From: Arcobacter caeni
Lineage (GTDB): Bacteria; Campylobacterota; Campylobacteria; Campylobacterales; Arcobacteraceae
Direction: 5' to 3'
Assembly: GCF_003063245.1 (NCBI RefSeq)
Contig: NZ_MUXE01000002.1
Coordinates: 124,001-188,000, forward strand
Length of the DNA: 64,000 nucleotides
Shown here: one piece after another, positions 23,559-47,921 of the stretch
How the letters are laid out: every line of letters starts with the position of its first letter
Position numbering within the stretch: position 1 is the first letter of the stretch
Program-made: the position numbers and the translations under genes
Notes under the pieces: model-generated
Seen by the model: the letters and a program-made list of their open reading frames with translations, nothing else
The model's database searches: none
Told to the model about the DNA's origin: nothing

Positions 23559-23573
23559 TGATAATAATTATCT
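23559..23573. promoter_or_regulatory. Fur box upstream of exbB
   Basis: TGATAATAATTATCT matches the 7-1-7 consensus TGATAATnATTATCA at 13 of 14 scored positions. It lies between divergent exbB and the tolC-like gene, nearer exbB. Confidence 0.75.
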
Positions 23574-28012: not shown

Positions 28013-28049
28013 AAATAAAATCTTTTCTATTATAGAGAAGATTTTATTT
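28013..28049. terminator. Bidirectional terminator after the exporter operon
   Basis: Arms 28013-28029 and 28033-28049 pair along 17 bases with one G-T wobble (AAATAAAATCTT against AAGATTTTATTT at the base). It serves the MacB-like gene on the plus strand and the ankyrin gene on the minus strand, both of which end here. Confidence 0.8.
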
Positions 28050-28562
28050 TGATTGAAGGATTTTAAATTTTTGTATTAGATACTCTATTTTTAGATTGTG
28101 CGCTAGATTTAAGGCACTATTTCCTAGAAAATCTTCATGTTCTAAATTAGCACCATTATCAATTAGATAATTTATACTATTTAATTTATTATATAAAACT
28201 GCATAAATAATTGGAGTAGAATTTATATCATCTATTTCATTCAAATTTACACCACAATTTCTAAGGCATTTTATTACTTTTACATTGTCTTTATAAACAG
28301 CATAATTAATTGCTGATAAATTAGGTGAAACCTCTGTACTAATGTTTAGTTGCATTAGTTTTTCTATTGAAGAAATATTTCCTTTGTTTATCGCCCAAAA
28401 CAAAGCATTTCTTCCTCTAAAATCTTTTGTATTTATATCAATAACTTTGAGTGATAATACTTCTAATAAAGTATCCCACTTATCTTTTGTTATTAAAGTA
28501 AAGAAGATTTTATTTAACAGTTGTTCTTCTATGTTGTTATTTAAAAAGATATTATTAGACAT
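28044..28562 (-). CDS. Ankyrin-repeat protein
   Basis: Protein of 172 aa composed of about four ankyrin repeats, seen in the recurring pattern DFRGRNALFWAINKGN, NLSAINYAVYKDN, NSTPIIYAVLYNK and DFLGNSALNLAHN. No signal peptide, so it should be a cytoplasmic protein-binding scaffold. The start ATG has AAAGGAT six bases upstream. A near-consensus Fur box lies 17 bp before the start, pointing to iron control. Partner unknown; in other bacteria small ankyrin proteins sit beside catalases, but none is here. Confidence 0.83.
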   Translation of the reverse strand: MSNNIFLNNNIEEQLLNKIFFTLITKDKWDTLLEVLSLKVIDINTKDFRGRNALFWAINKGNISSIEKLMQLNISTEVSPNLSAINYAVYKDNVKVIKCLRNCGVNLNEIDDINSTPIIYAVLYNKLNSINYLIDNGANLEHEDFLGNSALNLAHNLKIEYLIQKFKILQSK

Positions 28563-28578
28563 TTTAAATCCTTTATAT

Positions 28579-28593
28579 TGATAATCAATATCA
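28579..28593. promoter_or_regulatory. Fur box upstream of the ankyrin gene
   Basis: TGATAATCAATATCA matches TGATAATnATTATCA at 13 of 14 scored positions and lies directly in front of the ankyrin gene start. Confidence 0.65.
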
Positions 28594-28624: not shown

Positions 28625-28855
28625 TTAGTCTATTTGAGGTTTTATTTCTTTTGATTGTTTAAGTTGTTTAGATTTTTTTGGTTGGTAAAGCATATGATGC
28701 CAAAGTGCAAAACCACAAAATGCAACACCAGCTACAACATGTACTTTTTTAGCTACGCTATTTTTCATGAACATAGAAGTTACAACAGTAGCACCAAGTG
28801 TTGCTGTCATTCCAATTTTTGCAGTTTCTTTTTGAAGTTCTAAATCAAATTTCAT
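28625..28855 (-). CDS. Small membrane protein in the iron cluster
   Basis: Protein of 76 aa. Residues 15-30 (GMTATLGATVVTSMFM) and 39-58 are hydrophobic, so one or two membrane segments are likely. The second ends in WHHMLY, whose paired histidines could bind metal or haem. The tail is Lys-rich and cytoplasmic by the positive-inside rule. It overlaps the end of the upstream 38-codon gene, and both lie behind two perfect Fur boxes. Family not recognised; the second helix recalls DUF4405-type haem-binding membrane helices, but too little is present to be sure. Confidence 0.7.
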   Translation of the reverse strand: MKFDLELQKETAKIGMTATLGATVVTSMFMKNSVAKKVHVVAGVAFCGFALWHHMLYQPKKSKQLKQSKEIKPQID

Positions 28856-28961
28856 CTCGTTGGTTCCTTTTTTTTCTTCGTTCCATTGTTTTTACGGTTT
28901 TAGTTACAGTTTTCATAGTTAATACAGCTGTTAATGCTGTTGCTAATAATAATATTGGCAT
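28845..28961 (-). CDS. 38-aa membrane microprotein
   Basis: Short gene with ATG at 28961, preceded by AAAAGGAA at good spacing, and TGA at 28845-28847. It encodes a hydrophobic N-terminal helix (MPILLLATALTAVLTM) and then a strongly basic tail rich in Lys and Arg. The stop overlaps the start of the 76-aa gene by eleven bases, as in coupled translation. It is the first gene after two perfect Fur boxes. Its placement and ribosome site make it credible despite its size. Function unknown; a basic single-helix peptide could associate with a membrane enzyme or compartment. Confidence 0.6.
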   Translation of the reverse strand: MPILLLATALTAVLTMKTVTKTVKTMERRKKRNQRDEI

Positions 28962-28972
28962 AGTATTCCTTT

Positions 28973-28987
28973 TGATAATAATTATCA
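28973..28987. promoter_or_regulatory. Perfect Fur box, proximal
   Basis: TGATAATAATTATCA is an exact 7-1-7 Fur consensus. It sits 12 bp upstream of the 38-aa gene start, in a position to block its ribosome or promoter region. Confidence 0.85.
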
Positions 28988-29017: not shown

Positions 29018-29032
29018 TGATAATTATTATCA
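29018..29032. promoter_or_regulatory. Perfect Fur box, distal
   Basis: TGATAATTATTATCA is a second exact Fur consensus, 45 bp from the first, just past the end of the P-type ATPase gene. Two boxes around one short promoter suggest tight iron repression of the two microproteins. Confidence 0.85.
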
Positions 29033-29036
29033 TATA

Positions 29037-31145
29037 CTATTTTACTTTAACACCTTTTATTGAATTAAACAATAAGCCAATTGTAGTTCCATTATGCAAA
29101 ACAGCTGTTACTATTGGAGAAAATACTCCAATTGTAGCACCTGCTAGGATACAAGAGTTTATTCCTACTGTTGCATTAAAATTATTGTTAATTAAATTCA
29201 TAGTTTTATTTGCATACTCTTTTGCTTCAACAACAGCCATAATATCATCTTTTAACAAAGATATATCAGCAGTTGCTTTTGCAATATCAGCACCTCTACT
29301 CATAGAAATTCCAACATGAGCTGAGATAAGTGCTGGAGCATCATTTATTCCATCTCCCACAAAAGCTACTTTTTTACCTTTAGCCATAAGTTCTTTTACT
29401 ATTATTGCTTTATCTTGTGGTAAAAGTTCAGCTTTTACTTCATCAATACCTAACTCATCTGCAATCATTTGAGCTTTTTGTTTTGTATCACCTGTTAACA
29501 TAATGATATTTTTAACACCTAGTTTTTTAAGTCGTAAAATTGCTGCTTTAGCATTATGTCTTAATTCATCAGCTAATGTAATAGTTCCTAAAAGTTTCCC
29601 ATCGTAACCTATGTAAAGTAAAGTTCTTCCATCTCTTAGAGAATTTTCAATTTTATCTTTATGTTCAGTAAAATCAATTTTTTCATCATCTTCTAAAAAG
29701 TGACGACTTCCAATAATTACAGATTTTTCTTTTACTTCAGTTTTTACTCCATGTGCTACAATAAACTCAACTTCTTCATGGTGCATATGAACAAAACCTC
29801 TTTGTTTAGCGGCTTTCACAACAGCTTCTGCAACTGGATGAAAATAGTGTTCTTCTGTTGAAGCTGTAAGATTTAAAAGTTCATCTTCACTCCAGTTATC
29901 ATCATATGATTCCACACAAATAACTTCAAGTTCTCCACCTGTTAAAGTTCCTGTTTTATCAAATACAAAAGTATCAGCATTACTTAAAGCCTCAATTGAT
30001 TTTGCACCTTTTATCATAATTCCATTATGACCAGCTTTGGAAATAGTTGATTTAAATGCAACGGGTGTTGCAAGTTTTAAAGCACATGAATAATCAGCTT
30101 GTAAAATAGAAGCCACTCGTTCAAAATCTTTTGCAAAAATATATGAAACAGTCGCCAGTCCAAGCGTTACAGGTACTAGTTTATTTGCTAATTTATTTGC
30201 TTTTAATTGAACAGATGATTTTTCATTTAAAGAGTTTTCAATGTAGTGTTTTATTCTTTGAGTTGCTGTGTTTGCACCAACATTTTCAGCCCAAATCCTA
30301 AATCTTCCCTCTTCAACAATTGTTCCTGAAATTACTCTATCACCTCTATATTTTATTATAGGTTCAGCTTCTCCCGTCATTGAAACTTGGTTTACACTTC
30401 CAGTTCCCTCAACAATATGCCCATCAACTGCAATTGTATTTCCAACTCCAACAACTACAATATCGCCAATTTCAATATCTTTACTTTTTACTAAAATTTC
30501 AGTGATTTTTCCATCGATTTTCTTTTCTATCCAAGCTTCTTCAACATTTGGTTTTGAAAGTTCTTTTAATAAATCATCACTTTTATGAACAGTTGTTTCT
30601 TCAATATATTCACCAAGTTCAAGCATTGCATTTGTAGAGTTTGCAGCTAAATAATCTTTTCTATAAATAGAAATAGCAACAGCTGCACTTTCTAAAACTT
30701 TTGAAGTTAATCCCTGTTTTAAAAGCTCTTTTGAACCCTCAATTAATAAAGGAATTGAAGCACCTGTTGTAACTCCTGCTTTTAATAAATCATTTTTAAT
30801 AAATCTTTCAGCAATCAAAGCACTGCTTGCTCTTATTATTCCATTTAGTGATGGTTCTTCACTTCCAACACAAGAAATACAAACAGCGGCCACTTCATCT
30901 TCACAAGATTTTAATAAATCCTCAATAGTAAGAGTATTTAAAATCTCTTCAATTTGTAAACTTATATCTTTATGTAATTCAAAAATAATACTAAAAGCTT
31001 TTTTATTTATTCGTACATTTTTTATATCTTTTATTTTTTCAAAATAGTTTTTTAAGATATTTTCATCTATAAATTCATCTTTTAATAAAAAATATTTGTA
31101 TCTAAATCTTAGATTCGTTTGATGTACTTTAATAAATTTATTCAT
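29037..31145 (-). CDS. fezB: P1B-type metal ATPase, FezB-like (P1B-6 class)
   Basis: Metal-pumping ATPase of 702 aa. The core is complete: TGEA (257-260), DKTGT with the phosphorylated Asp396, an HP motif (436-437), TGDT (551-554) and GDGIND (597-602). In the metal-binding helix, where copper or zinc pumps have CPC, SPC or TPC, this one has DYSCALKLATP with SCA at 353-355, which I associate with the P1B-6 class. The N-terminus lacks a GMTCxxC metal-binding domain, and the HMA2 protein in the same operon may stand in. P1B-6 pumps named FezB load iron into ferrosomes. This is the last gene of a six-gene minus-strand operon. A different divalent metal is possible. Confidence 0.8.
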   Translation of the reverse strand: MNKFIKVHQTNLRFRYKYFLLKDEFIDENILKNYFEKIKDIKNVRINKKAFSIIFELHKDISLQIEEILNTLTIEDLLKSCEDEVAAVCISCVGSEEPSLNGIIRASSALIAERFIKNDLLKAGVTTGASIPLLIEGSKELLKQGLTSKVLESAAVAISIYRKDYLAANSTNAMLELGEYIEETTVHKSDDLLKELSKPNVEEAWIEKKIDGKITEILVKSKDIEIGDIVVVGVGNTIAVDGHIVEGTGSVNQVSMTGEAEPIIKYRGDRVISGTIVEEGRFRIWAENVGANTATQRIKHYIENSLNEKSSVQLKANKLANKLVPVTLGLATVSYIFAKDFERVASILQADYSCALKLATPVAFKSTISKAGHNGIMIKGAKSIEALSNADTFVFDKTGTLTGGELEVICVESYDDNWSEDELLNLTASTEEHYFHPVAEAVVKAAKQRGFVHMHHEEVEFIVAHGVKTEVKEKSVIIGSRHFLEDDEKIDFTEHKDKIENSLRDGRTLLYIGYDGKLLGTITLADELRHNAKAAILRLKKLGVKNIIMLTGDTKQKAQMIADELGIDEVKAELLPQDKAIIVKELMAKGKKVAFVGDGINDAPALISAHVGISMSRGADIAKATADISLLKDDIMAVVEAKEYANKTMNLINNNFNATVGINSCILAGATIGVFSPIVTAVLHNGTTIGLLFNSIKGVKVK

Positions 31146-31147
31146 AA

Positions 31148-31513
31148 TTACTGTTCTTGATTAGCTTGCATTTGAGCTTTTGTATCTTCATATCTTTCTT
31201 TTAACTCTTCAATTCCAGCACTAAAAAGTTGACTTCCTTTTCCAAAAGCCTTAAAGATAGTATCTTGAGCATTTTTATTTGTAAGAAGATAAGTAACAGC
31301 AGCTCCTAATAATGCTCCTTTTATAAAATCGCCACTAGTAAAAGTACTTTGTGTTGTCATATTTGTTTGTTGTGGATTTTGTAAAGGATTAAAGTTTTGA
31401 TTAATATACGGATTTTGATTTATATTAACACCTGTTTGATTATTTTTTGGTCTAGAATTCTCAATATTTATATCATATTGACTTGCTTGATTATTATGAT
31501 TTTGATTATTCAT
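31148..31513 (-). CDS. YtxH-like membrane protein with Asn/Gln-rich N-terminus
   Basis: Protein of 121 aa from ATG 31513, which has GAAGAAG just upstream. The frame stays open to 31543 but the extra ten residues overlap the previous gene without purpose. Residues 1-60 are low-complexity, rich in Asn, Gln and Pro with repeated NINQNPYINQ-type stretches. A short helix with a small-residue pattern (GDFIKGALLGAAVTYLL) follows, then an amphipathic coil (GIEELKERYEDTKAQMQ) typical of YtxH-like proteins. The disordered N-terminus could act as a phase-forming or scaffolding tail on a membrane surface. It ends two bases before the ATPase gene. Confidence 0.7.
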   Translation of the reverse strand: MNNQNHNNQASQYDINIENSRPKNNQTGVNINQNPYINQNFNPLQNPQQTNMTTQSTFTSGDFIKGALLGAAVTYLLTNKNAQDTIFKAFGKGSQLFSAGIEELKERYEDTKAQMQANQEQ

Positions 31514-31868
31514 AATCTTCTTCTTCCACTGGACAATTTTCATTTGTTAAATATTTTTGATCAAGTTTTTCTTCAATTACTTCAATTGCATAAATTCCCA
31601 TCATTCCAATACTTGCAGCTGTAAGAGCTTTAAACAATCCACCTTTTTGACCTAAATAGTTTGCAGTTGCAATCGCACTTCCTGTAACAATAGCACCTTG
31701 TGAAGTTCTTTTAATAGTGTCTTTTATAGCATCTTTTTTTGAGATTTCTCTACTTTGTGCTTTTTTATAATTAATTGCACCACTTATAATTGCACTTGCA
31801 ACTGCACCACTAATTACATGTCCTAATACATTTCTTGGTGCTCCTGTATTAATTGTTAAATCTTTCAT
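31506..31868 (-). CDS. Small Gly/Ala-rich membrane protein of the fez-like operon
   Basis: Protein of 120 aa, not assigned to a family. Three segments are rich in small residues: HVISGAVASAIISGAI (about 17-32), GAIVTGSAIATANYLG (about 58-73) and LTAASIGMMGIYAIEVI (about 82-98). GxxxG-like spacing suggests tight helix packing in a membrane. The C-terminus is acidic. It overlaps both neighbours, so is clearly part of the operon. I do not recognise its fold; a role in shaping or packing the compartment membrane is only a guess from its context. Confidence 0.7.
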   Translation of the reverse strand: MKDLTINTGAPRNVLGHVISGAVASAIISGAINYKKAQSREISKKDAIKDTIKRTSQGAIVTGSAIATANYLGQKGGLFKALTAASIGMMGIYAIEVIEEKLDQKYLTNENCPVEEEDYE

Positions 31869-32101
31869 AATACTTCATCCTTGCTTTTTTCTTTTTTCTT
31901 ATCTTCTATACACTCTTTTGTAGCACAAATAGTTTCTTTGATTTCGTTTACATTTTCTTTTGTTTTTTCTAAAGTAGTATTTGCAAACTCTTTTGATTTT
32001 TCAAATAATTTTGAAGTTTTTTCTTTTAATTTATCTTTATTTTTAAAAGCAACAACAGCACCGGCACCCACAGCTAATCCTAATATAAATGGTAAAGGCA
32101 T
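31865..32101 (-). CDS. YtxH-like small membrane protein
   Basis: Protein of 78 aa with one N-terminal helix rich in Gly and Ala (PFILGLAVGAGAVVAF) followed by a long charged amphipathic helix rich in Lys and Glu, the YtxH layout. Two cysteines lie in ICATKEC near residue 59 and could bind metal. The start overlaps or abuts the genes on both sides within four bases. The helix would lie along or brace a membrane. Function is not known for the family. Confidence 0.75.
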   Translation of the reverse strand: MPLPFILGLAVGAGAVVAFKNKDKLKEKTSKLFEKSKEFANTTLEKTKENVNEIKETICATKECIEDKKKEKSKDEVL

Positions 32102-32104
32102 TTT

Positions 32105-32812
32105 CTACTCCTCTTCTTCTTGTTCTTCAGTAAGATTCTTTTTTGAAAGGTAATTATTTAAAAGTGCAATTGTTGCAGCTCCTAAAACAGCACCACTAAC
32201 CATAGATAGATTTAATTTAGAAAAAATATTAGAGATTGAACTTTCATCAATATTTCCACTCATAATATCATCTAATATAACTTGATATTCTCCAAGTTTT
32301 TCCATAATATTTTCTGGATTAATATTTGTATTATTTCCATTATTATAATGAGTCAAAACACAATTTCTAAAAGCTGGTAAATGATTATTAAAAGATGCTG
32401 CTTGAAGTCTATAAAGAGTATCTTTTATGTCATTTTCAACTGCAAATCCAAGTAAATTATTGTACATTGCAATATTATTTATTTCACCTGCAACTCCCAA
32501 TTCACAACACTCTATTAAAGTATTTGGGATTTCTATTTTTGAAGCCCAATCGTTTAGTGGAACTTCAACACCATATTTTTCCATCAATTTTATAAGTGCA
32601 GCATAATGAACAGCTTCTGCTTCTTTTATATTTACAAAAGGTTGAACTAAACCAAATTTTTCAATTATTTTTGTGTAAGTTTCATAAGCTTTAAATTCAT
32701 CATAAACAGCAATTCTTAAAATCTGAGAAGTTATGGGAATTTGACTATTTACATCAATTCGAGCAGATATTAATAGTGCTTCGTCGGTATTTGTTTCCAA
32801 ATTTGTTTCCAA
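32105..32812 (-). CDS. Membrane-anchored DUF2202 ferritin-like protein
   Basis: Protein of 235 aa with a four-helix ferritin-like domain (about 28-150) that follows the DUF2202 pattern: YDEFKAYETY (Glu39, Glu44), IKEAEAVHYAALIKL (Glu66, His69), GVAGEINNIAMY (Glu110) and ASFNNHLPAF (His144). These Glu and His residues would form a di-iron site. Unlike ordinary DUF2202 proteins it continues through a linker to a C-terminal membrane helix (about 202-220, VSGAVLGAATIALLNN) and an acidic tail ending EEQEEEE. So an iron-binding domain is tethered to a membrane. Position two in the operon, after the HMA2 gene with no gap. Di-iron binding is inferred. Confidence 0.75.
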   Translation of the reverse strand: METNLETNTDEALLISARIDVNSQIPITSQILRIAVYDEFKAYETYTKIIEKFGLVQPFVNIKEAEAVHYAALIKLMEKYGVEVPLNDWASKIEIPNTLIECCELGVAGEINNIAMYNNLLGFAVENDIKDTLYRLQAASFNNHLPAFRNCVLTHYNNGNNTNINPENIMEKLGEYQVILDDIMSGNIDESSISNIFSKLNLSMVSGAVLGAATIALLNNYLSKKNLTEEQEEEE

Positions 32813-33127
32813 TTAAATAACCTCCTTTGCAAGTCTATTTATTAATATAGATAACTCATCTATATTTTCATTTTTAACTAAATCTTCCCAATGAGTTGGT
32901 TTGAATATAGTTGGTTCGTAAATGATTGTAATAGATGCAATAATTTTATTTATTTTAATACTAATTATTCCATCTATTTTATTTGGTAAATTCTCAATAT
33001 CACTGATAGTTATATTTCCACCTGAATCTTTTATTTTAGGATTTACTCTAACTCTTAATCTTCCAGGTGTGTGGGCGATAATTGAAAAAAAACTAGCAAT
33101 TTTTATAATATCTTCTGTACTAATCAA
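32813..33127 (-). CDS. HMA2-domain protein
   Basis: Protein of 104 aa with the HMA2 signature AHTPGRLRVRV at about residues 18-28 and a ferredoxin-like beta-alpha-beta-beta pattern after it. The Cys-x-x-Cys of classical heavy-metal-associated domains is absent, as is usual in HMA2. HMA2 proteins accompany P1B-6 ATPases in fez operons. Here it is the first gene of the six-gene operon, with a Fur-like box about 60 bp upstream of the start. It may deliver metal to the ATPase or recruit it. Confidence 0.8.
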   Translation of the reverse strand: MISTEDIIKIASFFSIIAHTPGRLRVRVNPKIKDSGGNITISDIENLPNKIDGIISIKINKIIASITIIYEPTIFKPTHWEDLVKNENIDELSILINRLAKEVI

Positions 33128-33188: not shown

Positions 33189-33203
33189 TAAAAATCATTA
33201 TCA
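33189..33203. promoter_or_regulatory. Fur-like box upstream of the fez-like operon
   Basis: TAAAAATCATTATCA matches the Fur palindrome at 12 of 14 scored positions, with one half-site exact. It lies between the fur-family gene and the HMA2 gene. A separate CTTAAG repeat pair (33156-33161 and 33166-33171) is nearer the start and could mark another operator. Confidence 0.6.
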
Positions 33204-33211
33204 TTCTTCTA

Positions 33212-33673
33212 TTATTGGCAAGTTTCACAAATTCCATAAATAGTCATAACATGTTCTTTTAAGATAAAATTATTTTTTTCTGCAATAGAGATTTGTTTTA
33301 GTTCTATTACATCATCTGAAAACTCTATAATAATTCCACAAGAAGTACAAATAAGATGGTCATGATGTTCTGCAATATTTAGTTCATATCTAATAACACC
33401 ATCTCCAATATCTAATTGATTTATAAGTTTTATATCATGGAAAAATTTCATAGCACGATAGACAGTTGCGATTCCAATTGATACATTATAATTTTGTTTG
33501 ATTTTATTTGAAATTTCATCAGCTGTTAAATGTTCTTTTGAAAAGTATAAAATTTTTAATATATAATCTTTTTGAATTGAGTTTTTTAAACCTATCTTTG
33601 ATACATTGTTTCTAAAATTTCTTAAAAAAATATCAAATGATATTTCTTGATTATTTTCTATATTAATTTCCAT
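33212..33673 (-). CDS. fur: Fur-family iron-responsive repressor
   Basis: Protein of 153 aa with an N-terminal winged helix (about 15-90, including IGIATVYRAMKFF as recognition helix) and a C-terminal dimer domain. HHDHLICTSCG gives histidines and a CxxC zinc site, and a second CxxC (CETCQ) lies at the very end. These are typical of Fur. PerR is an alternative because it shares this layout, but the nearby boxes are of Fur type and the cluster concerns iron. Its ATG overlaps the stop of a 47-codon gene, and it runs in the same direction as the fez-like operon. Confidence 0.83.
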   Translation of the reverse strand: MEINIENNQEISFDIFLRNFRNNVSKIGLKNSIQKDYILKILYFSKEHLTADEISNKIKQNYNVSIGIATVYRAMKFFHDIKLINQLDIGDGVIRYELNIAEHHDHLICTSCGIIIEFSDDVIELKQISIAEKNNFILKEHVMTIYGICETCQ

Positions 33674-34608: not shown

Positions 34609-35586
34609 TTAATTCCAGTCTAAAAGTCTTTTTTCACCCTCAAGAGCTCTAATTTCACTAACATCTTGAGACATTTCAATTACACCTTTATAATTTCTTT
34701 CTTCATCTCTAATTGCAAAATATCTAATATGAATAAATTTACCTTTAAATTGAATCCAAAACTCAGCTGTGTCTTGTCGTCCTGCTTTAAACTCTTCAAG
34801 AATTTTTAAAACTTGATCAACACTTTTTGGCGGATGACAAAACTTAACTTCTCTTCCAATAATCCCAGCACTTCTTGGGAAAACTCTTTCATCACCTCTA
34901 TTATAAAAAACAACTTTGTCATTTTCATCAACATAAGTAATATCAACAGGTAGAAATTTAAATATAAAATTAACTTGTTCCATAGTTAAATATCCCTCAT
35001 CAAAGTGAGTTCTATCTTCAAGTGAAAAAGATAATTTTCTTTTTTTCGTATCTAAACTTGGGTGAATATACTCTTCTTCTTTAATTTCAGGGTATCTAAC
35101 AGGTGGTGTTGCAAACATCCAACCAATTTCACAATCACCTTCATACATCTCTTTCCAGTCATCTTCATTTAATAAATTCATAGCATTTGGTAAAAGTCTA
35201 TTTTCTTCTACTGACATCAATTGAGATAAGCTATTAAATACAACAATTAAAGAATTTAATATGTTTTCAAAATCTTTATCTTCGATTTTTTTTCTTACAC
35301 TTTTTATTTCAGCTCTAATTTGGTCATGAAAAGCCCACATACCTTGGCTAGGACTTGTCCAACCATATTTTTCAAGATATGGAAAAAGTTGATTCTCTTT
35401 TCTTGCAAAGTGTTTTTCAACTTGACTTAGTTGGTTGAAAAGATTGAAAAATAGTTGAAAATCCGTATTTATATCTACTTTAAAAAGCTCTTCAAAAAGT
35501 TGTTTTATTAAGATGTTTTCTTCAAGATAAACTCTTACAGGGTGACCTTGTGGAAAGTTGTTTATATTATTAGTTAAGTTATCCAT
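34609..35586 (-). CDS. Hemerythrin/DUF438-like PAS protein
   Basis: Protein of 325 aa, cytoplasmic. Residues 10-160 are a four-helix hemerythrin-like domain: HPVRVYLEEN, EKHFARKENQLFPYLEK and FHDQIRAEI supply the His and Glu ligands of a di-iron site, and SVEENRLLP completes it. The C-terminal 110 residues form a PAS domain (FKFLPVDITYVDENDKVVFYN, then GREVKFCHPPKSVDQVL), a layout I know as DUF438 plus PAS. It probably senses oxygen, nitric oxide or redox state. The gene is divergent from fumC over a spacer with an FNR-like site. Confidence 0.8.
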   Translation of the reverse strand: MDNLTNNINNFPQGHPVRVYLEENILIKQLFEELFKVDINTDFQLFFNLFNQLSQVEKHFARKENQLFPYLEKYGWTSPSQGMWAFHDQIRAEIKSVRKKIEDKDFENILNSLIVVFNSLSQLMSVEENRLLPNAMNLLNEDDWKEMYEGDCEIGWMFATPPVRYPEIKEEEYIHPSLDTKKRKLSFSLEDRTHFDEGYLTMEQVNFIFKFLPVDITYVDENDKVVFYNRGDERVFPRSAGIIGREVKFCHPPKSVDQVLKILEEFKAGRQDTAEFWIQFKGKFIHIRYFAIRDEERNYKGVIEMSQDVSEIRALEGEKRLLDWN

Positions 35587-43301: not shown

Positions 43302-43316
43302 TGATAACGATTATCA
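43302..43316. promoter_or_regulatory. Fur box upstream of the ABC/NnrS/TonB operon
   Basis: TGATAACGATTATCA differs from the consensus at one of 14 scored positions, and the flanks extend the symmetry to AATGATAACGATTATCATT, the classic 19-bp form. It lies 44 bp upstream of the permease gene. Confidence 0.8.
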
Positions 43317-43365: not shown

Positions 43366-43380
43366 TAATAACTATTATCA
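43366..43380. promoter_or_regulatory. Fur-like box facing hemP
   Basis: TAATAACTATTATCA matches at 12 of 14 scored positions, right half exact. It lies 83 bp upstream of hemP on the other side of the divergent promoter. Confidence 0.55.
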
Positions 43381-46815: not shown

Positions 46816-47921
46816 TGATAAAAGAAAAGTTAGACTTTATTCCAAATGATTTAGTATCACTTAAAGATTATGAAAGATATGCAAAAGAGCGAATGGATTT
46901 AAACTCTTTGGCTTATGTTTGTAGTGGAGCAGGAGATGAAATAACTTTTAGAAGAAATGAAGAAGCTTTTTCTAATATTTTTTTAGAAACAAACACTTTA
47001 GAAGATTTAGGTGGAGCAAATACAAAAATAGAGTTATTTGGAGAAACTTATTCTTCACCAATATTTTTAGCACCAGTTGCTTATCAAAAGTTAGTGGATT
47101 TTGATGGAGAAATAGCAACCGCTCAAGCTGCAAATGCTATGAATACTTGTATGTGTGTTAGTTCCTTTTCAAGTTCTACTTTAGAAGATATTTCAAATAC
47201 TACAAGTTCACCTCTTTGGTTTCAACTGTACATCCAAGCTGATATGAATACAAATATAAAACTTATAAGAAAAGCTGAGAATCTAGGTTTTAAAGCCTTA
47301 GTTATTACAATAGATGCGCCAATTTCAGGTCTTAGAAACACAGAACAAAGAGCAGGATTTTATTTACCAAATGAAATTTGTGCAATTAATATTGAAAATA
47401 TAAATCCAATGCAAACAACAAATAATTTTGAAAATATATTAGATATTGCAAAAATATTACCAACATGGAAAGATATAGAATTTATCAAAAATAATACTAA
47501 TTTATCAGTAATTTTAAAAGGAATAACTAGCGTTTCTTATGCAAAAAAAGCAGTAGAGTTAGGAATTGATGCAATTGTAGTATCCAATCACGCAGGACGA
47601 ACATTGGACACACTTCCTGCTAGTATAGAAATTTTGCCAAAAATAGCAAATGAAATAAAAGGAAAAATTCCAATACTTTTTGATGGTGGAATAAAAAGAG
47701 GAACAGATGTTATAAAAGCAATTGCATTGGGTGCAAGTGCTGTTATGATTGGACGACCAATAATGTATGGTTTAGCAACAGCTGGTGCTTTAGGTGTTGC
47801 TCATACTTTAAAAATTTTAAAAGAAGAACTTGAAGTTTCTATGATTTTTACAGGTTGTAAAAATATAGAAGAGCTTAAAAAATTAGAGCTCACTTTTAAT
47901 AACAATTATCAATTACATTAA
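46815..47921 (+). CDS. FMN-dependent alpha-hydroxy-acid oxidase/dehydrogenase
   Basis: Flavoprotein of 368 aa of the LldD/glycolate oxidase family. The active-site histidine is His259 in SNHAGRTLD, with Arg262 beside it; the usual SNHGGRQLD is altered at two positions. Lys235 (LKGI) and IDAPISGLRNTEQRAGF complete the site, and DGGIKRGTDVIKAIALGA binds the FMN phosphate. No membrane-binding insert, so more like lactate or glycolate oxidase than membrane LldD. Its ATG shares one base with the piuC stop. In an iron cluster it may oxidise a hydroxy-acid iron ligand, but this is inference. Confidence 0.85.
   Translation: MIKEKLDFIPNDLVSLKDYERYAKERMDLNSLAYVCSGAGDEITFRRNEEAFSNIFLETNTLEDLGGANTKIELFGETYSSPIFLAPVAYQKLVDFDGEIATAQAANAMNTCMCVSSFSSSTLEDISNTTSSPLWFQLYIQADMNTNIKLIRKAENLGFKALVITIDAPISGLRNTEQRAGFYLPNEICAINIENINPMQTTNNFENILDIAKILPTWKDIEFIKNNTNLSVILKGITSVSYAKKAVELGIDAIVVSNHAGRTLDTLPASIEILPKIANEIKGKIPILFDGGIKRGTDVIKAIALGASAVMIGRPIMYGLATAGALGVAHTLKILKEELEVSMIFTGCKNIEELKKLELTFNNNYQLH

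Follow-up and report, generated by a model that had tools for sequence, protein, structure and literature searches.

Does Arcobacter caeni carry the genes for a ferrosome, a membrane-bounded iron store? The question is raised by six tightly packed minus-strand genes at 29037-33127 of the window, by which is meant the whole stretch of 64,000 nucleotides that was analysed (contig NZ_MUXE01000002.1, positions 124,001 to 188,000). With good confidence the locus can be read as a Fur-box-bearing fez cluster of the six-gene kind, most likely building a ferrosome. Ferrosomes and fez operons are already known; the unusual parts of this cluster are a membrane-tethered ferritin-like protein and a MamC-like protein, and searches of an open-licence library yielded no description of either as part of a fez cluster.

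Organisation of the cluster

All six open reading frames (ORFs) were found as placed by an initial annotation of this DNA, with spacings of 0-3 bases or a 4-base overlap, except for the ORF of 131 amino acids (aa), which as listed overlaps its neighbour by 38 bases; an in-frame ATG at 31513 (121 aa), overlapping the previous stop region, is its likelier start. Searches with Pfam and NCBIfam recognised an HMA2 protein, a DUF2202/rubrerythrin-like domain and a heavy-metal P-type ATPase among the six products, the three small proteins giving weak matches only. The same genes recur together across Campylobacterota, and therefore the cluster is more than a product of chance.

The boundary at six genes had been drawn too narrowly, for the six are preceded by a Fur-family gene and followed by two Fur boxes and by the genes of a 38-aa membrane protein and of a weakly DUF4405-like one. 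The FezC-like candidate, these Fur boxes and the MamC-like resemblance of one of the products, all described below, had been missed.

The ATPase groups with those of fez-type operons

The last gene of the cluster (29037-31145, minus strand) encodes a P-type ATPase of 702 aa matching TIGR01525 at E 7.5e-143. The motif in its fourth transmembrane helix (TM4) reads DYSCAL, which places SCA at the metal site in the position of the usual CPx, as had been noted from the first, and both of the other matches to this ATPase in the genome (E ≤ 0.001) have CPC. A pattern search for an HN motif in the sixth helix (TM6) located it in 115 of 133 ATPases, the window protein among them; passages of PMC9374683 describe this motif as a P1B-6 feature.

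A tree was made of 58 proteins, with references for subtypes P1B-1, -2, -4 and -5, P1B-3 not being included. The window ATPase fell inside a group of 44 rows (branch 1.12, support 100/100) that includes ATPases of Shewanella, Vibrio, Ferrimonas, Kluyvera, Hafnia, Azospirillum, Chromatiales and others. A separate group (91/85) held CopF and FixI (P1B-1), PbrA (P1B-2), CzcP (P1B-4), Nia (P1B-5), the two CPC pumps of the same genome and a Paenibacillus copper pump, and was joined by a Shinella row; CtpC-like, Fusobacterium, Priestia and Deinococcus rows fell outside the group of 44. Some of the references bear gene names and subtypes that we presume for them, and the motifs read in their sequences were CPC, SPC and TPC. 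Its SCA and HN motifs and its grouping with the ATPases of fez-type operons make the window protein, by its sequence, one of the FezB/P1B-6 type, and the proposal that it belongs there stands, since it lies apart from the four reference subtypes sampled.

A pump of this kind could also be the centre of a P1B-6 efflux platform in the cell membrane, in which the YtxH-like proteins would be scaffolds, as PacL1 is for CtpC, and the metal would be exported without any organelle. The HN motif and a small membrane partner are common to the CtpC/PacL1 platforms and the window cluster, and passages of PMC9374683 report that genes for P1B-6-like pumps go with ones for membrane proteins of DUF1490 or DUF6110 type and that CtpC is stabilised by PacL1 in membrane foci. 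However, starred branches of the tree split the window ATPase, with the fez-type loci, from the CtpC-like pumps, and the CtpC-like rows carry CPC, whereas the window protein has SCA. DUF1490 and DUF6110 gave no match at the cluster, either in the window proteins (Pfam, E ≤ 0.1) or in 24 members of the 131-aa family (E ≤ 0.01), and two CtpC-like rows examined had no HMA2, MamC-like or ferritin-like partner annotated beside them. HMA2, MamC-like and FezC-like proteins together with Fur boxes fit iron storage better than export. Efflux is the main rival of the ferrosome reading, but tree and partners both count against it, and we regard it as unlikely.

In Priestia megaterium pBM400 (L198), the gene of a P-type ATPase that has DFICGI at TM4, and also an HN motif, is flanked by HMA2 genes, three in all; this ATPase lies outside the FezB-type group and may belong to a related system.

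Three companions are shared with gammaproteobacterial fez operons

Shewanella putrefaciens has a six-gene fez operon. In the Shewanella-, Vibrio- and Azospirillum-type operons the same FezB-type ATPase comes last, preceded by a YtxH-like and a Gly/Ala gene and, further up, by an HMA2 gene. The order in the Vibrio and Shewanella loci is HMA2, a large YtxH-like protein, the Gly/Ala protein, a YtxH-like protein and the ATPase, with a second HMA2 gene upstream on the opposite strand in the Vibrio plasmid, and the annotated set of Azospirillum brasilense Cd is HMA2, a cation transporter, two hypothetical proteins, YtxH and a P-type ATPase. Compared with these operons, the Campylobacterota clusters have a ferritin-like gene after HMA2, a 78-aa protein that is partly matched, a DUF4405-like gene after fezB and Fur boxes before the latter gene. 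Six fez genes are also used by Rhodopseudomonas palustris CGA009, as stated in a passage of PMC12016538.

When the Campylobacterota families were compared with the gammaproteobacterial fez families profile to profile (hhalign), the FezA-like HMA2 protein (32813-33127, minus strand, 104 aa, TTG start, GRxRxR motif) reached 99.1% (E 5.9e-19), the Gly/Ala-rich membrane protein (31506-31868, minus strand, 120 aa) 98.6% (E 1.4e-15), and the 131-aa YtxH-like membrane protein with its disordered Asn/Gln N-terminus (31148-31543, minus strand) 99.2% (E 1e-19). By these profiles, the three companions are homologues of gammaproteobacterial genes in the same order, at 98.6-99.2%, in agreement with the expectation of fez-like small partners. 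The small 78-aa membrane protein (31865-32101, minus strand), distantly YtxH-like, was partly matched, with 88.7% to the gammaproteobacterial YtxH-like family, 80.5% to the large protein and 94.8% to the 131-aa family, which itself gave 97.6% with the large protein. Outside this YtxH-like group and short stretches, mismatched pairs were low; the short-stretch matches were Gly/Ala with gammaproteobacterial YtxH-like (47%) and the ferritin-like family with the 78-aa (46%) and 131-aa (31%) families. The ferritin-like family gave 10% or less with any gammaproteobacterial family.

PF19991 matched 25 of 25 HMA2 orthologues at E ≤ 0.001; the window protein (E 1.9e-5) scored 25.1 bits, slightly under the Pfam cut-off of 30. 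The earlier label 'YtxH-like' is a loose one, for PF12732 (YtxH) matched 4 of 24 orthologues of the 131-aa protein but neither of the window proteins.

Gene content was counted at a profile threshold of E ≤ 1e-3 in 52 Campylobacterota loci (the window, one plasmid and 50 genomes) and in 80 Pseudomonadota loci, three of an original 83 having been dropped as they had no intact ATPase ORF; 19 to 25 of the 52 Campylobacterota loci had gone into the making of the profiles, and these match by construction. The 52 loci, one of which (L154) lies at a contig end, had HMA2 in 51, the ferritin-like gene in 46, the 78-aa and Gly/Ala genes in 50 each, the YtxH-like gene in 52 and the DUF4405-like gene in 45. 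Among the Pseudomonadota, HMA2 was found in 70 loci, Gly/Ala in 76, YtxH-like in 78, the ferritin-like gene in two (L105 and L116) and the DUF4405-like gene in two (L117 and L136); the 78-aa profile, which cross-matches the YtxH-like gene, hit 27.

A tethered ferritin-like protein is linked to fezB

The second gene of the cluster, after HMA2, encodes a ferritin-like protein of DUF2202/rubrerythrin type (32105-32812, minus strand, 235 aa; E 2.6e-4 and 2.9e-3) with a hydrophobic C-terminal anchor. With PF09968 (DUF2202) it scored 21.3 bits, slightly under the gathering cut-off of 22, and 11 of 19 family members matched this model at E ≤ 0.01, the best at 3.4e-8. A hydrophobic C-terminal stretch (19-residue mean of at least 1.2) is present in 46 of 48 members, reaching at least 1.6 in 29.

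This gene had been proposed as the distinctive part of the cluster, and its distribution agrees. In the family Arcobacteraceae, a strong match (E < 1e-50) was found in 63 of 64 fezB-positive genomes and in none of 40 fezB-negative ones (Fisher p 4e-28, which overstates the number of independent events, as the genomes are related); the 64th positive genome holds a fragment only, at a contig end, and two of the negative genomes gave weak matches (2e-6 and 2.6e-4). In the Chromatiales-type loci L105 and L116 the gene lies directly upstream of fezB, and in a third locus (L212) beside it; that the gene keeps company with fezB in another phylum, though at a different position, speaks for a working link between the two. 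Within the order of L105, DUF2202-type proteins occur in 6 of 147 genomes, with FezB adjoining in two (L211, which is L105's own place, and L212) and no FezB in the stretch examined around the other four (L213-L216). At least one of these four DUF2202-type relatives, L215, had no membrane anchor in the part examined. The ferritin-like protein was probably gained in the Campylobacterota line, and probably also in some purple sulphur bacteria.

The AlphaFold model, made from a three-sequence alignment (mean pLDDT 75.4, pTM 0.71), predicts a helical bundle at residues 27-157 (block mean pLDDT 80-97) and a C-terminal part of low confidence. The best Foldseek match, and the sole one under 0.001, was MJ0754 (E 3.8e-4), followed by other ferritin-like proteins; we take MJ0754 to be a DUF2202 protein. 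Superposition with VIA-align, bacterioferritins included, gave Z 16.4-17.9 over 127-147 residues, higher than the value of about 13 that chance matches between helical bundles may reach. Among profiles, an encapsulated ferritin (E 0.003) was weakly matched, as was a chain of a virus-like particle that has a related stretch (0.006). On the model, a four-helix ferritin-like fold is supported. This predicted bundle is common to MJ0754, bacterioferritin and encapsulated ferritin, whereas the window protein has a C-terminal anchor, a place in a fez cluster and five of the six usual ligand positions. The domain probably lies on the cytosolic face, with no obvious signal peptide seen by eye, no predictor having been run.

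Rubrerythrins are peroxidases, and within a true fez cluster the ferritin-like protein could be structural, a peroxidase or an inactive relic that neither oxidises nor holds iron. PF02915 (rubrerythrin) recognises 12 of the 19 members, and at the sixth di-iron ligand position, three residues before His144 in helix D where a glutamate is expected, 35 homologues have Tyr (19), Phe (14) or Ala (2). Yet Glu39, Glu66, His69, Glu110 and His144, mapped as ligands from the alignment, are kept in 34, 30, 33, 34 and 35 of these 35, the closest fold is that of MJ0754, of which a structure with zinc has been solved too, and bacterioferritins gave Z 16-18 on superposition. On this balance, a protein that neither oxidises nor holds iron is rather less likely than not.

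The idea that the ferritin-like anchor and the anchor module of the YtxH-like proteins are the same was rejected, as a search with the anchor profile gave no match at E < 0.1 among 48 DUF2202-type ORFs.

The Gly/Ala-rich protein resembles MamC

MamC of magnetosomes is a Gly/Ala-rich membrane protein, and at E ≤ 0.01 its model NF038051 recognises 17 of 23 proteins of the Gly/Ala family, with E 6.3e-10 for the best of them. The window protein scored 22.4 bits over model positions 13-85 of 97. When whole genomes were searched, the single match in A. caeni was the Gly/Ala gene (E 0.003, 18.8 bits), and one match each was found in Shewanella pneumatophori, Vibrio furnissii and a Chromatiales metagenome-assembled genome (MAG), all of them fez-cluster genes by their coordinates; no match appeared in 14 control genomes. 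These genome-wide scores, where given in bits, were 18.8-33 and none passed the equivalog cut-off of 100; being so far below it, they indicate a MamC-like resemblance only. The genomes of a Magnetospira MAG (L136) and a Methylocystaceae MAG (L117) had no match at E ≤ 0.01, and therefore their fez-type loci do not support the MamC link.

Distant homology of the Gly/Ala family to MamC is likely but not settled, because both families are Gly/Ala-rich membrane proteins; apart from the scores, the window-type proteins differ from MamC by their location in fez clusters. The AlphaFold model (mean pLDDT 61.9, pTM 0.35, three helices) was too weak for a fold search. Passages of PMC12713370 contain no MamC-fez link.

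Fur boxes and a downstream FezC-like unit

Two perfect 7-1-7 palindromes, at 29018-29032 and 28973-28987, both matching TGATAATNATTATCA, which we take to be the Fur consensus, lie between fezB and the 76-aa gene and lead a 38-aa and a 76-aa gene; they are conserved in relatives. A further Fur-box-like site (33189-33203) upstream of the HMA2 gene has two mismatches, a fit equalled in 4 of 200 shuffles of the same stretch. The window as a whole holds 11 sites with up to two mismatches where 2.24 are expected, a number reached in none of 100 shuffles. In 31 Campylobacterota loci with at least 50 bases between fezB and the DUF4405-like gene, a perfect box is present in 9 and one with up to two mismatches in 17; upstream of HMA2, such a box occurs in 16 of 51 loci and is missing from 35. 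The control consisted of simple shuffles, and in many other loci the best site is no better than these. The Fur-family regulator gene directly upstream of the cluster (33212-33673, minus strand; PF01475, E 4.1e-32), one of four in the genome, stands where 13 of 52 Campylobacterota loci, the window among the loci counted, have a Fur-family gene. With perfect boxes present, the cluster is predicted to be under Fur control. FezA and FezB are needed for the ferrosomes of Clostridioides difficile, where they are repressed by Fur, according to a passage of PMC12574912.

A fez-type organelle could instead store or detoxify a metal other than iron, given that the P1B-6 family is called poorly characterised in a passage of PMC9374683. 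The Fur boxes, the neighbouring Fur-family gene and the ferritin-like partner speak against this, and we consider it highly improbable.

Downstream of the boxes, the 38-aa membrane microprotein (28845-28961, minus strand) overlaps with its end the start codon of the next gene, and in 16 of 22 loci of the Arcobacteraceae, the window included, the corresponding gap holds a look-alike ORF. The 76-aa membrane protein that follows (28625-28855, minus strand) belongs to a family of which DUF4405 recognises 17 of 20 proteins at E ≤ 0.1 (0.0018 for the best), and H39 and H53 are invariant in all 20 aligned members, making it a candidate haem-b cytochrome. The fezABC genes of Desulfovibrio magneticus encode an ATPase, an HMA2-type protein and FezC, a haem cytochrome, a set that the window cluster resembles with its ATPase, its HMA2 protein and its weakly DUF4405-like protein with conserved histidines; by comparison, the window cluster has more small membrane genes and the ferritin-like gene. 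FezC is described as DUF4405-like and haem-binding, and that of Desulfurispirillum indicum is modelled as a homodimer, in passages of PMC11334425. A FezC-like role of the 76-aa protein is plausible on its sequence.

Distribution and iron storage in the genome

FezB is said to have been described as widespread by Grant in 2022. A fezB-type ATPase was found in 64 of 104 genomes of the family (E ≤ 1e-100) and, at E ≤ 1e-110, in 102 of a sample of 298 that spans the phylum; if the ferrosome reading is correct, a large bacterial group carries ferrosome genes, in a young field with few model species. The ATPase was also found at E ≤ 1e-80 in 42 plasmid records, with identities of 78-81% in two from Arcobacter, 45-52% in eight from Azospirillum, 41% in Cereibacter, 40% in Vibrio and 37% or less in the other 30. 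An Arcobacter plasmid from chicken meat (L057, CP129951.1, 128912-133388) holds the complete cluster, ferritin-like gene included, with a DUF4405-like gene downstream, and therefore the cluster can sit on a plasmid.

PF00210, which covers ferritin, bacterioferritin and Dps, gave nothing above its cut-off in the A. caeni genome (99.98% complete; best 21.4 bits vs. 24.5), and was above cut-off in all 14 control genomes. The idea that the ferrosome replaces ferritin in general was discarded, because a strong PF00210 match (E < 1e-15) is present in 49 of the 64 genomes with fez and in 25 of the 40 without it (Fisher p 0.18); A. caeni and 14 other fez-positive genomes are without one. In the family as a whole fez and ferritin co-exist, and lack of a PF00210 ferritin characterises only this genome and some of its relatives.

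Elsewhere in the genome (contig C3, 29771-30880), a weak ferritin-fold match (E 3.2e-4, below cut-off) adjoins a Fur-family gene, perhaps a rubrerythrin and PerR pair.

Proposed function and its weight

What the sequences show is the identity, order, conservation and linkage of the genes, the Fur-box motifs and a predicted fold; we infer the formation of a vesicle, iron as its cargo, the roles of the parts and the membrane side of the ferritin-like domain. As iron falls, Fur would leave the boxes and both transcripts would be made. The HMA2 protein and the YtxH-like membrane proteins may then shape or tether the vesicle membrane, the FezB-type ATPase would pump ferrous iron from the cytosol into the vesicle, and the membrane of the vesicle would also hold the Gly/Ala MamC-like protein, possibly turned towards the mineral. 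The DUF4405/FezC-like protein could carry electrons across the membrane and so adjust the redox state of the iron, and the tethered ferritin-like protein, next to FezB, may bind, buffer or oxidise iron, or remove peroxide.

Several points weigh against a ferrosome at this locus. It is predicted from genes, and P1B-6-like pumps include the zinc exporter CtpC, which needs a membrane scaffold (passages of PMC9374683). The tree is without the FezB proteins of R. palustris, D. magneticus, S. putrefaciens and C. difficile, another Shewanella species having been used, so that the link to ferrosomes runs through relatives and gene order. Several reference rows are long-branched, with a warning from the tool of two long-branch joins among them, many rows are unlike in letter make-up and the root is a midpoint used for drawing; these caveats leave the 44-row branch not directly touched. 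To these are added the altered sixth ligand of the ferritin-like protein, the DUF4405 score of the window 76-aa protein (16.7 bits, under the curated cut-off of 26.7) and the lack of an inverse relation between fez and ferritins in the family. Lastly, the DUF2202-type gene is present in just 2 of 80 Pseudomonadota fez-type loci, and is therefore not essential to ferrosomes in general.

If the ferrosome reading is nevertheless correct, the cluster offers a handle on whether a ferritin-like domain helps to load a lipid-bounded iron store, as the other fez-type operons found here are mostly without it, and the MamC-like protein is a testable link between ferrosomes and magnetosomes. As a tentative extension, Campylobacterota may have a hybrid iron organelle in which the tethered ferritin-like enzyme prepares or buffers iron for FezB, the Gly/Ala protein shares ancestry with MamC, and the organelle is the main iron store in genomes without a recognisable ferritin. 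Ferrosomes and magnetosomes would then share at least one mineral-facing component. As the A. caeni genome lacks a recognisable ferritin, loss of fezB could be unusually informative in it.

Neighbouring features

Further Fur-box-like sites with one or two mismatches lie at 43302-43316, 43366-43380, 23559-23573 and 47897-47911. Near the cluster, a gene at 34609-35586 encodes a protein with hemerythrin and PAS domains, possibly another iron or oxygen sensor. Downstream, an ankyrin-repeat gene (28044-28562) is accompanied by a Fur-box-like site with one mismatch at 28579-28593, and the gene recurs at this position in just two of the loci searched, those of the near relatives L139 and L140.

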